NCBI RefSeq assembly: GCF_032229225.1
Contig: NZ_CP135076.1
Coordinates: 2,461,001 to 2,525,000, forward strand
DNA from: Stakelama saccharophila
Lineage (GTDB): Bacteria > Pseudomonadota > Alphaproteobacteria > Sphingomonadales > Sphingomonadaceae
DNA length: 64,000 nucleotides
Direction of reading: 5' to 3'
This document shows positions 1 to 57,772 of the stretch, piece by piece. The translations under genes and the position numbers were made by a program. The notes beneath the pieces were generated by a model. It was not told where the DNA came from. It searched no databases and saw nothing but the letters and a program-made list of their open reading frames with translations. The stretch's first letter is position 1. The number at the start of each line of letters is the position of its first letter.

Positions 1-87
1 TGGAGGGGCCTCGCGGCAAACGCTTCGCGTGCCGATGCCCCCCTCCGCCCCGCTGCGCGGGCCACCTCCCCCTGCCGGGGAGGATCC
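1..87. repeat. Partial family-A palindromic repeat at window edge
   Basis: Only one side of the element is visible. It ends in an arm reading CCTCCCCCTGCCGGGGAGG, the same style of arm as the copies at 24236, 51567 and 57499. It stops about 8 bases beyond the stop codon of the neighbouring minus-strand gene. The left boundary lies outside the window. Confidence 0.6.
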
Positions 88-4598: not shown

Positions 4599-4745
4599 CG
4601 CATGGCACGAGCGGACGCCCGCCGTTCCGGCACCCAGCGGCAACCGGCGGAACGATCCGATGCGGCTCCCTCCGCGTCGGGATGTCGCTCCAAACGGAGG
4701 TCCGTGCCTCGGCCAGTCCCTGGACCCAAGCAAGAGCGACCACGC

Positions 4746-4947
4746 GCCGGCAGGTCTCCTGGCTCGCGGATCACCGCATTCGATGCGCCAGCCTTCCCGG
4801 GTCTTGCCCAGTGACCGCTCCCTCGGGCGGGAGCCTCGCGCATCGCGCTAACCGCTTACAGTTGCAGGGACAGCCGCGGCCTGGGATGCCCCTCGGGCAT
4901 CCGCACCGCATTCCCTCTGGGCCCTGAAAGGGCGCCGGCACGATGTT
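4746..4947 (-). promoter_or_regulatory. Cobalamin (AdoCbl) riboswitch
   Basis: On the minus strand all the hallmark blocks occur in order: GGGAATGCGGTG, GGCTGTCCCTGCAACTGTAA, a GGTCACTGG block, GGGAAGGC, and the B12 box AGCCAGGAGACCTGCC at 4764-4749. This is a complete class-I-type cobalamin aptamer placed upstream of a BtuB-type receptor. Boundaries are approximate. Confidence 0.95.
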
Positions 4948-4979
4948 GTGCGACCGGCCAGCGGCCGGTCGCCGGGCGG

Positions 4980-24235: not shown

Positions 24236-24349
24236 TCCTCCCCTGCAAGGGGAGGTGGCAGCCCGAGGGGCTGACGGAGGGGTATAACCACCAGCGTCGA
24301 CACCCCTCCACCATGCTTCGCATGGTCCCCCTCCCCTTGCAGGGGAGGA
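24236..24349. repeat. Family-A palindromic repeat between leuD and the small peptide gene
   Basis: Terminal arms (24236-24255 and 24330-24349) are 20-bp perfect inverted repeats, each itself a small palindrome of the form CCTCCCCTGCAAGGGGAGG. The interior contains GGCAGCCCGAGGGGCTGACGG and CCTCCACCATGCTTCGCATGG stems, as in the copies at 51567 and 57499. It starts 20 bases upstream of leuD and ends 8 bases past the stop at 24357. Confidence 0.9.
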
Positions 24350-24356
24350 TCTTCGG

Positions 24357-28334: not shown

Positions 28335-28415
28335 GTATAGGCTAACGGGCGCCTCGCTTTTCGTCGGACCCGGCTTGCCGGGTGGCTCGGCCCGGCGCCT
28401 ATCCCCGGGATAACC
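28335..28415 (+). promoter_or_regulatory. Structured leader upstream of the SulP operon
   Basis: A GGGCGCC arm (28348-28354 region) pairs with GGCGCC (28394-28399) and encloses an ACCCG/CGGGT hairpin. It is followed by CCCCGGG and ATAACC. The dense GC-rich pairing 90-170 bases ahead of the transporter start suggests a cis-acting RNA. It matches no class I can name with confidence. A sulfate-transporter leader motif is possible. Confidence 0.35.
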
Positions 28416-51566: not shown

Positions 51567-51710
51567 TCCTCCCCTGCAAGGGGAGGGGGACCAGCCGCAG
51601 GCTGGTGGAGGGGGAAGGCCGCAGACGCAACGTGGACGGCACTCGGCGCCTATGGTGGAAGCCCCCCTCCACCATGCTCCGCATGGTCCCCCTCCCCGTT
51701 CCGGGGAGGA
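51567..51710. repeat. Family-A palindromic repeat between murB and ddl
   Basis: 144 bases. Terminal arms (51567-51590 and 51687-51710) are inverted repeats with three mismatches, each also a small palindrome around CCTCCCC...GGGGAGG. Interior stems CAGCCGCAGGCTGG and CCACCATGCTCCGCATGG resemble the other copies. The arm next to ddl provides its ribosome-binding site. Confidence 0.92.
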
Positions 51711-51725
51711 TGTCACAGCCGCCGG

Positions 51726-55146: not shown

Positions 55147-56369
55147 TATTTCGACTTCCATCCCGTGCCGTAGGAGGATCGGCTGAGATACGGGTTGCGC
55201 CGCGTGAAGGCGAGCAGCAGCCCCATGCCGATCGAAAGCGCCACCATGGACGAGCCGCCATAGCTGATAAAGGGCAGCGTCATGCCCTTGGACGGCGCCA
55301 GGCCCGTATTCACCGCCATGTTGATCATCGCCTGCACACCGAACTCCGCCGCCAGTCCGGACGCGGCGAGCAGGCGGAACGGATCGTCCTCTTCGAGCTG
55401 CTTGACAAACACCCGCGTCACGATCGCGAGGAACAGGATGGTGATGACGGCGCAGGCGATATAGCCGAACTCCTCGCCCACGACGGCATAGATGTAGTCG
55501 GTATGCGCCTCGGGCAGCAGGAACTTCTCCGACCCCGCGCCCGGACCGGTGCCAGTCAGCCCGCCGGCGGTCAGCACCGCATGCGCCATGTCCGTCTGAT
55601 AGGTGTCGGCCGCCACGGCGGAACTGTCGGGGAACAGGAATCCGTCGATCCGCGCGCGCGCCGTGCCGTAGAACATATAGGCCATGATGATGCCGCCCAG
55701 TCCCAGCCCAGCGAGCCCCGCCAGGATCCGCGGCGACGTGCCCGCGATCAGCAGCAGGATCAGCCAGATCAGGCCGAAGATCATGGTCTGGCCGAAATCG
55801 GGTTGCAGCATCAGCAAGAGGCCGACCAGGCCGGTCAGCAGCATCGTGATCGGCACGACGGGCAGATGGCGGTCTTCGGCCTTCAGCGACAGGATCCATG
55901 CCGTCGTCACGATGAACATCGGCTTCAGGAATTCCGATGGCTGGAACTGGGCGAAGCCGAACCCGATCCAGCGCCGCGCGCCGTTCGCCTCCACACCGAC
56001 GAACGGCGTCAGCGCCAGAAGGGCGAGGAAGACGACCGTTCCGATCAATGCGGCGCGCCGGGCGAACGTCACCGGCAGCATCGACACCGCGAGCAATACC
56101 GGCACCGACAGCGCGACCCATCCGGCCTGTCGCCAGAAATAGTACATCGGCGTAATCTGATGGCTGCCGCCCGAATAGCGCTCGGCCGACGCGGGTGACG
56201 CGGCCGCCACCGCCACCAGCCCGATGGCGATCAACAGGAAGGCGAGCAGCAACAGCACCCGGTCGATGTCCCGGAACCAGGCGCCGATGGGCGAACGGCT
56301 CGCCCGACCGAGCTGTTGCTCCATCCGCGCACGCATGCCGCGATCCCCGCTACGCATGATATCGGTCAT
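55146..56369 (-). CDS. ftsW: Cell division protein FtsW (SEDS glycosyltransferase)
   Basis: 407 residues, ten hydrophobic helices. The SEDS hallmarks include RRWIGFGFAQFQPSEFLKP, LMLQPDFGQTMIF, and YAVVGEEFGYIAC and LPFISYGGSSMVALSIGMGLLLAFTRRN. It polymerises glycan chains from lipid II at the septum with FtsI. The ATG overlaps murD by four bases. Confidence 0.96.
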   Translation of the reverse strand: MTDIMRSGDRGMRARMEQQLGRASRSPIGAWFRDIDRVLLLLAFLLIAIGLVAVAAASPASAERYSGGSHQITPMYYFWRQAGWVALSVPVLLAVSMLPVTFARRAALIGTVVFLALLALTPFVGVEANGARRWIGFGFAQFQPSEFLKPMFIVTTAWILSLKAEDRHLPVVPITMLLTGLVGLLLMLQPDFGQTMIFGLIWLILLLIAGTSPRILAGLAGLGLGGIIMAYMFYGTARARIDGFLFPDSSAVAADTYQTDMAHAVLTAGGLTGTGPGAGSEKFLLPEAHTDYIYAVVGEEFGYIACAVITILFLAIVTRVFVKQLEEDDPFRLLAASGLAAEFGVQAMINMAVNTGLAPSKGMTLPFISYGGSSMVALSIGMGLLLAFTRRNPYLSRSSYGTGWKSK

Positions 56370-57772
56370 GCCAGTCCCCCAACCAGCGAACGAAACGCGC
56401 TCCCGCGCTCTTCATAGTCGCGAAACTGGTCGAACGAAGCGCAGGCCGGCGACAACAGCACGGTGTCGCCCGGCTCGGCGCGCTTCGCCGCGCGCGCCAC
56501 CGCTTCCGCCAGTGTCCCGCATTCTTCCACCGCCATGTCCGGCCGCAGCAGGCGTGCGAACATCGGCCCCGCCTCGCCGATCGTATAGGCGCACGCGACA
56601 TGACCGAAGGCCGGCCGGCAGGGTTCCAGATCGTCCGTCTTCGCCTGCCCGCCCAGGATCCAGTGGGTCCGGTCGAACGCCGCGAGCGCCGATGCGGTAG
56701 AGGTCGGGTTGGTCGCCTTGGAATCGTTGACGTACAGGACCCCGTTCACGGTGCCGATGCGCTCCATGCGGTGCGGCAGGCCGGGAAAGCTCTCCAGTCC
56801 GCGGTCGATCGCCTCGCGCGACAGGCCCAGCGCCTCGCACACCGCAATCGCCGCCAACGCGTTCTGCGCGTTGTGCGGCCCCTGAAGCGCCGGCCAGCGC
56901 GATTGATTCATGCACGCGCCCGGCGCGATCTTCGTCAGATGCTCGCCCCGCGCCGACAGCGACCGCGCCACCTCGTAGGACGGCGTGCCGCCGATCCCGA
57001 CGACGGCGGCGTGATCGGGCGCCTGCATCGCGAACAGCCGCGCCTTGGACGCGGCATAGGCGTCGAAGTCCGCATAGCGGTCGAGATGGTCGGGCGTGAT
57101 GTTGAGCAGCACCGCGACGTCGCAATCGAGGCTGCGGGTCAGGTCGATCTGATAGCTCGACAGTTCCAGCACATAGACACCGCCTTCCGGCAGCGGATCG
57201 GCGGCGAGGATCGGCAGGCCGATATTACCCCCCAGCCGCGCAGGCCATCCCGCCGCCTCGACGATGTGATGGACGAGTGCGGTCGTGGTGGACTTGCCGT
57301 TGGTGCCGGTGACGCCGACGACCTTGTGCGCCGGCAATTGCTCCCGCGCCTGCGCGAACAGCTCGATATCGCCGATGACGGGCACACCCGCCGCCTCCGC
57401 GCGCGCGGCGATCGGATGCCGGTTGAGCGGCACCCCCGGCGAGACGACGACGGCATCGAACCCGGCAAGATCGGTGTCCAACGGATCGGCAAGCGTAAGA
57501 TCCTCCCCGGCACGGGGAGGGGGATCAGCCGCAGGCTGGTGGAGGGGGCTTGCCGCGGGTGCAACGCTCGATGCAGTTCCCCCTCCACCACCAGCTTCGC
57601 CGGCGGTCCCCCTCCCCGTGCCGGGGAGGATCGCTTCCCGCCGTCCTGCATCCGCATCCCACGCCACGACCTCGGCCCCGCTCGCCAGCAGCGCCGCGAC
57701 CGTCGCGCGGCCGGAACGCGCCAGTCCCAGCACCGCAAAGCGTTTGCCGCGCCAGGCGGAACTCGCGATCAC
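56366..57772 (-). CDS. murD: UDP-N-acetylmuramoylalanine--D-glutamate ligase with repeat-encoded insertion
   Basis: 468 residues, about 30 or more longer than common MurD proteins. Motifs are [56 protein letters not shown] and LHRMERIG-like [25 protein letters not shown]. Residues about 47-92 come from a complete family-A palindromic repeat, read through in frame, giving a Gly/Ala/Pro-rich segment ([16 protein letters not shown]). It falls between the second strand (VVAWDAD) and [15 protein letters not shown] of the N-terminal domain, probably as a loop. Overlaps ftsW and mraY by four bases each. Confidence 0.95.
57499..57632. repeat. Family-A palindromic repeat inside murD
   Basis: 134 bases with perfect 26-bp terminal inverted repeats (57499-57524 and 57607-57632), ending GATCCTCCCCGGCACGGGG. 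The interior has the same CAGCCGCAGGCTGGTGGAGG and CCTCCACCACCAGCTTCGCC parts as the 51567 copy. The perfect arms suggest a recent insertion. The frame of murD is kept. Confidence 0.95.

Follow-up and report, generated by a model that had tools for sequence, protein, structure and literature searches.

An in-frame palindromic repeat in murD of Stakelama saccharophila and the turnover of repeat classes in the same MurD loop among related species

Introduction

Two kinds of palindromic repeat residing inside genes are already known, namely the in-frame Rickettsia palindromic elements (RPEs) and intragenic REPs. RPEs lie as in-frame palindromes in protein genes, and one of the enzymes carrying them, Gmk, has been described as translated and active (PMC2229807, in part). 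Every rickettsial orthologue bears the insertion at the same locus, and different RPE groups are found near one site; the choice between a hotspot and a common origin for such shared sites was not settled, and for three groups a common origin was preferred (PMC3767692, in part). The GTAG/CGTC REPs reported by the Di Nocera group in 2013 were observed inside genes of S. alaskensis and E. litoralis, among them truB and those for tRNA synthetases, as well as at about the same site in recB of two Xanthomonas species (PMC3733652, in part). REPINs are short hairpin repeats that last as genomic populations (PMC8049555, in part), and MITEs have also been found in coding genes, such as the enterobacterial 127-bp ERIC/RU-1 and the Neisseria NEMIS, with open frames fused to those of the genes (PMC2229807, in part).

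Here, we analyzed a 64,000-nucleotide stretch of the S. saccharophila genome (contig NZ_CP135076.1, positions 2,461,001 to 2,525,000; hereafter the window), in which an earlier note made from the sequence alone had placed a palindromic repeat inside murD. What is new in comparison with the systems above is the scale, the turnover of several repeat classes at one codon region and the many empty orthologues. Searches of an open-access library yielded no report of MurD inserts or of multi-class turnover at one site, and the word "murD" is absent from the main text of PMC3733652.

A palindromic element is inserted in frame in murD

The gene was assigned from its open reading frame, its Pfam domains and its match to solved MurD chains, and harbors the following features:

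56366..57772, minus strand: murD, UDP-N-acetylmuramoylalanine--D-glutamate ligase, 468 aa, GTG start
57499..57632, minus strand: class A palindromic element, 134 bp, in frame, MurD residues 47-92
57499..57524: perfect 26-nt terminal inverted repeat, left arm
57607..57632: perfect 26-nt terminal inverted repeat, right arm
57537..57590: inner hairpin with 12-nt arms (57537-57548 and 57579-57590)

The terminal arms were 100% complementary over 26 nt with 82 nt between them, and the murD reading frame (57772..56366, minus strand) continued uninterrupted across the element to give the predicted 468-aa product, in agreement with both the perfect arms and the stop-free frame that the earlier note had described. 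Mur_ligase_M and Mur_ligase_C were recognized in this product by Pfam, and MurD-like_N matched at 25.6 bits, slightly short of the Pfam cut-off of 27. The murD loop scored 26 for inverted repeats, the highest value among 20 base shuffles being 9, and the corresponding mRNA segment folded at -124.3 kcal/mol compared with -81.1 +/- 4.75 for shuffles (z -9.1), with an outer stem closing inner hairpins; the palindrome is therefore not a chance feature. No Rfam match above the gathering score was obtained at the element.

The loop begins about 10 residues past the "AWD" motif of the MurD N-terminal domain and comprises 67 residues in S. saccharophila versus 26 in the commonest empty orthologues. 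The addition of about 46 residues, as previously estimated, holds for the element alone, whereas the whole loop is only about 41 residues longer than those orthologues. The segment is a mobile-repeat insertion in frame, and, as far as the sequences allow, it is very probably one copy of a non-autonomous, hairpin-forming interspersed repeat lodged in a permissive MurD loop.

The class A family and its relation to known repeats

The class A family, with usual ends ATCCTCCCC...GGGGAGGAT, produced at least 52 match rows at 30 or more distinct places in the 3.19-Mb single-contig genome, the number of places being a lower bound from 40 scored candidates out of 62, and it was present in 135 of the 151 same-genus genomes. 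Three further copies fall in the window:

51567..51711: apparently intergenic class A copy, within the cell-wall gene cluster that also contains murD, 73% identity to the murD element
24236..24351: class A copy, 72% identity to the murD element
1..86 (genome 2460962-2461086): right-hand portion of a class A copy truncated at the start of the window, 75% identity

The copies at 24236 and 51567, to which the murD palindrome had earlier been likened, are real, though just 72% and 73% identical to it. From the gene order, we take the genes flanking 51567..51711 to be murB and ddl, and no Pfam family was detected in the one frame tested across this copy. An element was also observed directly before a murB-like gene in two other species (L332 and L335), the gene being presumably murB judging from its peptide.

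Among the scored candidates, the own-genome copy closest to the murD element was 85% identical to it. The best matches comprised a non-murD copy in genome G120, with 89% in the search and 0.879 in global alignment, and the MurD insert of G086 was 88% identical. Perfect arms had previously been read as a sign of recent insertion, a reading undermined both by this distance to the nearest own-genome copy and by a similar insert common to four species of another clade, whose elements are 92-99% identical and still exhibit arm scores of 19-28; because near-perfect arms are retained in such a shared insert, they are no proof of recency. Each of the six frames was open in 31-37 of 38 class A copies, a sample drawn partly by peptide search and hence biased and only indicative, which suggests that the main filter on class A insertion is a net length in multiples of three. 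Elsewhere in the genome, a class A match of half the usual length separates two domains of a LigD-like DNA ligase (L009:925-3051:+), and the window also holds a Cobalamin riboswitch (4732-4954, minus strand) and a sul1 RNA motif (28363-28415, plus strand).

The likeness to RPEs is one of mode, both being dispersed hairpin repeats of 100-150 bp in conserved enzymes (PMC3767692 and PMC2229807, in part), and class A, at 134 bp, occupies at least 30 genomic places and lies in frame in MurD, GcvPB and TruB. Insertion of the Rickettsia type in a sphingomonad family, which the earlier note had proposed, is thereby borne out in these three enzymes. Unlike the rickettsial orthologues, each of which is filled (PMC3767692, in part), those of Sphingomonas exhibit empty and differently filled loops intermixed among close species. 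With the GTAG/CGTC REPs, class A shares the presence of palindromic repeats inside open reading frames, but those REPs are tagged units of 20-40 bp (PMC3733652, in part) compared with about 134 bp in class A. Neither the GTAG nor the CGTC tag was detected on either strand of the window copy, and among 28 other class A copies a tag occurred near an end in at most one copy per tag and strand, while AT was found on the left in 20/28 and on the right in 20/28. The elements resemble REPINs as short, persistent hairpin repeats (PMC8049555, in part), although S. saccharophila differs in having no match to PF01797 (Y1_Tnp/RAYT), a family detected in 7 of 31 genomes searched and 5 of 14 control genomes; with zero matches in this genome, a RAYT-driven REPIN is unsupported. 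Terminal inverted repeats (26 nt, 100% in class A), small size and in-frame fusion are shared with MITEs (PMC2229807, in part). No target-site duplication or target motif was evident by eye in the flanks of 28 copies and 15 MurD inserts, the empty/filled pairs being too diverged at the DNA level to show one.

The MurD loop is occupied by several palindrome classes across the genus

MurD was detected in all 151 same-genus genomes, and 148 loci (30 + 118) were read, G007, G021 and G035 being left out as weak or partial matches. Seven of the 148 fell outside the counts, four of them ending inside the insert at a contig end and three being frame-broken. In the remaining 141 readable MurDs, S. saccharophila included, 56 loops were filled, 80 were empty, 2 were remnants and 3 were other. 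Loop classes were defined by fixed peptide rules and not by a curated library, with non-palindromic loops of up to 45 residues counted as empty, and these counts supersede an earlier one of 63 empty and 26 other. The 56 filled loops were distributed as follows:

Class A, 15 loops: LPGTGRG...PPPRAGEDL (the class of S. saccharophila MurD)
Class B, 23 loops: PSPLRGEGWGEG...PTLSPEGRG
Class C, 9 loops: PPLQGRGWGG...PNPSPEGEG
Class D, 4 loops: LPFRGGVGGG...PNPSPEGEG
Class E, 2 loops: PELARGGGP...
Class F, 1 loop: SSRAQSR...VSTSLDTNG
A-like, 2 loops

Classes B, C and D are similar to each other, perhaps as subfamilies of a single class. Inverted repeats scored above all 100 base shuffles in 50/56 filled loops (the exceptions being L041, L063, L109, L140, L149 and L154) versus 1/80 empty loops, the lone case, L150, being a one-arm stub. 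Four loci (L062, L144, L149 and L168) harbor nested hairpin-like stretches within a first insert with the frame kept, and three others (L109, L145 and L105) have the appearance of decayed remnants. The 80 empty loops among 141 agree with the expectation that the segment would be absent in most relatives, and a single recent insertion in one strain is ruled out by the 56 filled sites, that of S. saccharophila included.

Longer non-palindromic loops also recur, either VQxxSxxLDxV-like or WxQLKxDR-like, and are dispersed over the MurD tree (L118, L125, L080, L090, L094, L098, L099 and L143; L088, L107, L123, L131 and L135), as if loops had been exchanged between species.

For the other genera of the family, 117 genomes were searched for MurD, and 28 best-scoring loci plus 20 loci with mostly broken or odd matches were read. 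None of the 26 parsed best-scoring loci had a loop of 77 or more, compared with 9 of the 19 parsed loci chosen for broken or odd matches (L298 included), which is not a fair sample. A class-F-like MurD insert was found outside the genus in L301, and a partly read insert in L296. In L298 (G190:C3:166100-167862), a long proline/glycine low-complexity stretch stands in place of the MurD loop, perhaps through an assembly fault.

Measured spans outside the MurD loop lack inserts, and the loop is predicted to be disordered

In all 141 readable MurDs, the span after the P-loop (from TGTNGK) measured 281-293 aa and was insert-free, and a span of the neighbouring MraY was likewise insert-free at 265-268 aa in 30/30 loci holding MraY. 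An AlphaFold2 model of MurD built on 65 sequences reached a mean pLDDT of 86.3, with 298 of the 468 residues at 90 or above, while residues 53-84, between a helix at 42-46 and a strand at 92-94, fell below 50. The enzyme is accordingly predicted by this model to be ordered and its insert loop disordered, in line with the earlier suggestion that the insert forms a loop. Local alignments with the best solved MurD chains start at query residues 78-79 and chain residue 40, with about 38 fewer residues before that point and the insert itself not spanned.

The occupants of the loop change between close species

Changes of loop state were counted on a quick IQ-TREE phylogeny of the MurD core, from which the loop was excluded; this partly resolved tree supersedes a FastTree protein tree, both being poorly resolved. 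No fewer than 37 changes were required for filled (remnants included) versus empty states (mean 44.9 and minimum 37 in 50 shuffles), 50 for all loop classes (mean 58.1, minimum 54) and 25 for class among the 54 filled tips (mean 26.9, minimum 23). These counts are inflated by the poor resolution of parts of the tree and by possible recombination in murD. Their closeness to the shuffled values indicates a weak phylogenetic signal. Sister pairs were discordant in loop state in 20 cases out of 40, 11 of which had support of at least 90.

Ten close species, compared over 4.4-kb loci, exhibited an alternation of classes A and B requiring at least four changes on each of three DNA trees. Two sister pairs, L029 (A)/L053 (B) and L030 (A)/L050 (B), were starred on the full and downstream trees, and the upstream tree had no starred branch. 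In these species, the 60 bp before the insert were more alike within insert types than between them (0.116 versus 0.164), unlike the 60 bp after it (0.196 versus 0.190) and the next 60 bp upstream (0.057 versus 0.059), and this upstream-flank bias weakly hints at short-tract exchange. The class A elements of L026, L027, L029 and L030 are 92-99% identical to one another, and their hosts are interleaved with class B hosts. The insert of L033 is 94.7% identical to another copy in its own genome and at most 88.5% identical to other MurD inserts, which suggests an origin in that lineage. Both local origin and shared alleles thus seem to occur.

The junctions were strikingly uniform. Class A inserts started at the identical nucleotide after the AWD codons in 14/14 readable cases, and class B inserts at another fixed one in 17/23, which is too uniform for free insertion and suggests descent, exchange or site-preserving replacement in place of many independent hits. 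The earlier picture holds insofar as a mobile repeat lies in frame, but it lacked the other palindrome classes that occupy this site in other species and their fast turnover.

Similar in-frame elements in other enzymes

Other in-frame copies, which the earlier note had recommended searching for, were found in the same genome in two enzymes:

G000:C1:2748618-2748744 (L003:110-1834:-): in-frame class A copy in GcvPB, subunit 2 of glycine dehydrogenase
G000:C1:269309-269438 (L004:421-2037:+): class A element in frame in TruB, between two TruB Pfam domains

Peptide searches over 101 genomes each, of which the best loci only were read, recovered in-frame copies in RNase R, GcvPB, a dehydrogenase E2 linker, TruB, LeuRS, GlyS and ValRS (assigned by Pfam). 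Such searches are biased by spurious frames in GC-rich DNA and by the choice of query frame, so that no insertion rate was drawn from them. The enzymes surveyed further are those where elements had already turned up. The TruB site was also occupied in L319, and each of the two RNase R copies has a site of its own. In both GcvPB and GlyS, the same site carries either class A or class B depending on the species, as in L314 (A) and L344 (B) for GcvPB, whose site was filled in 5 of 30 genomes.

One site in GlyS, which was matched in 27 of 30 genomes and readable in 26, was occupied in 20 of the latter by many repeat types (L420-L446, where L442 is S. saccharophila itself), including further insert peptides such as TPAKAGV...PASAGVT and HPGEGRGP...LDPGLRRG. 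Inverted repeats scored above all 100 shuffles in 19 of these 20 inserts, L434 being the exception. GlyS also has additional variable sites, some with repeat-like peptides; in the S. saccharophila enzyme, site 2 scored 10 and site 3 scored 9, the shuffle maximum being 9 for each, and with weak or no palindrome they were left uncounted.

Alternative explanations

The most serious alternative, which may be either a rival to our best explanation or a component of it, and to which we give slightly less than an even chance, is that one or a few ancient in-frame palindromes were repeatedly overwritten by other repeat copies through ectopic conversion between similar arms, or were swapped between species by homologous recombination of short tracts, in place of new hits. 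The common start nucleotide (14/14 A and 17/23 B inserts) speaks for such replacement, as do the upstream 60 bp that are more alike within insert type (0.116 versus 0.164) with no bias further upstream, and the 92-99% identical A elements of L026, L027, L029 and L030 in hosts interleaved with B hosts. Nevertheless, 80 of 141 loops are empty, several of them sister to filled ones, so gain or loss is also required; moreover, the downstream 60 bp show no linkage (0.196 versus 0.190), the L033 insert is nearest to a copy in its own genome, and the classes differ in length and centre. A selected role, either for an mRNA hairpin in the cell-wall operon or for a regulatory MurD loop, appears improbable. 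It would account for the very stable mRNA hairpin, the high occupancy in MurD and GlyS and the second element in the same gene cluster of the window, but sequence, class and length vary freely, 80/141 species have no insert, the loop is disordered in the AlphaFold2 model and unrelated enzymes exhibit the same pattern.

Filled MurDs are widespread in the genus and also occur in other genera of the family, as would be expected if the segment were a single old insertion, or had long belonged to MurD natively, and was inherited and diverged. This reading is very improbable given that 80/141 orthologues are empty, that the site holds several palindrome classes and differs between sister pairs, that many genomes hold dispersed copies of classes A and B and that the solved MurD chains are about 38 residues shorter before the alignment start, the insert not being spanned; an old conserved domain part is ruled out by the 80 empty loops and the several classes. 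Least credible of all is an assembly artefact or a broken gene. Contigs do end within the insert in four genomes (L072, L075, L085 and L163), and frames are broken at the element in L077, L179, L262 and L267 (in L173, outside it), such broken-frame loci being probably collapsed or miscalled repeats. Against this, the S. saccharophila genome is one contig, a long loop with an intact frame occurs in 56/141 same-genus loci and in 38/77 parsed loci of an overlapping set of named records, and the observed artefacts shorten or break inserts and do not create them.

Proposed mechanism and implications

Taken as a whole, the explanation that we favor with considerable confidence is that of a class A repeat in a permissive MurD loop, within a family whose members insert or are replaced frequently and survive in tolerant loops. 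Insertion and mutual replacement of elements would be frequent, with most of the hits at other places presumably purged, and survival would be limited to loops able to absorb some 35-45 additional disordered residues. A new occupant may arrive by fresh insertion, take over through recombination at the site or come with a short murD tract exchanged between species, and deletion may reduce an occupant to a single arm. For MurD, the insert most probably has a neutral or slightly costly effect and does not serve as a functional domain.

Mobile DNA in an essential enzyme would be expected to be rare and lethal, yet here it is common, quickly replaced and different between sister species. The mixture of empty, filled, nested and decayed loops bears on the question of hotspot versus common origin raised for Rickettsia (PMC3767692, in part), and with more than 140 species in a culturable system, gain, swap and loss become datable. 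The loops also offer natural long-loop variants of MurD and GlyS, and for annotators, such peptide motifs in core proteins denote repeat DNA at which assemblies can break.

A bolder extension, possible but in our view unlikely, is that the core enzymes of Sphingomonadaceae hold fixed "docking loops" in which a resident palindrome is swapped through its arms with place and frame kept. If so, essential proteins would carry a genome-encoded peptide tag that changes faster than speciation, and there would be a general route for selfish DNA to persist inside essential genes and feed new peptide sequence into them.
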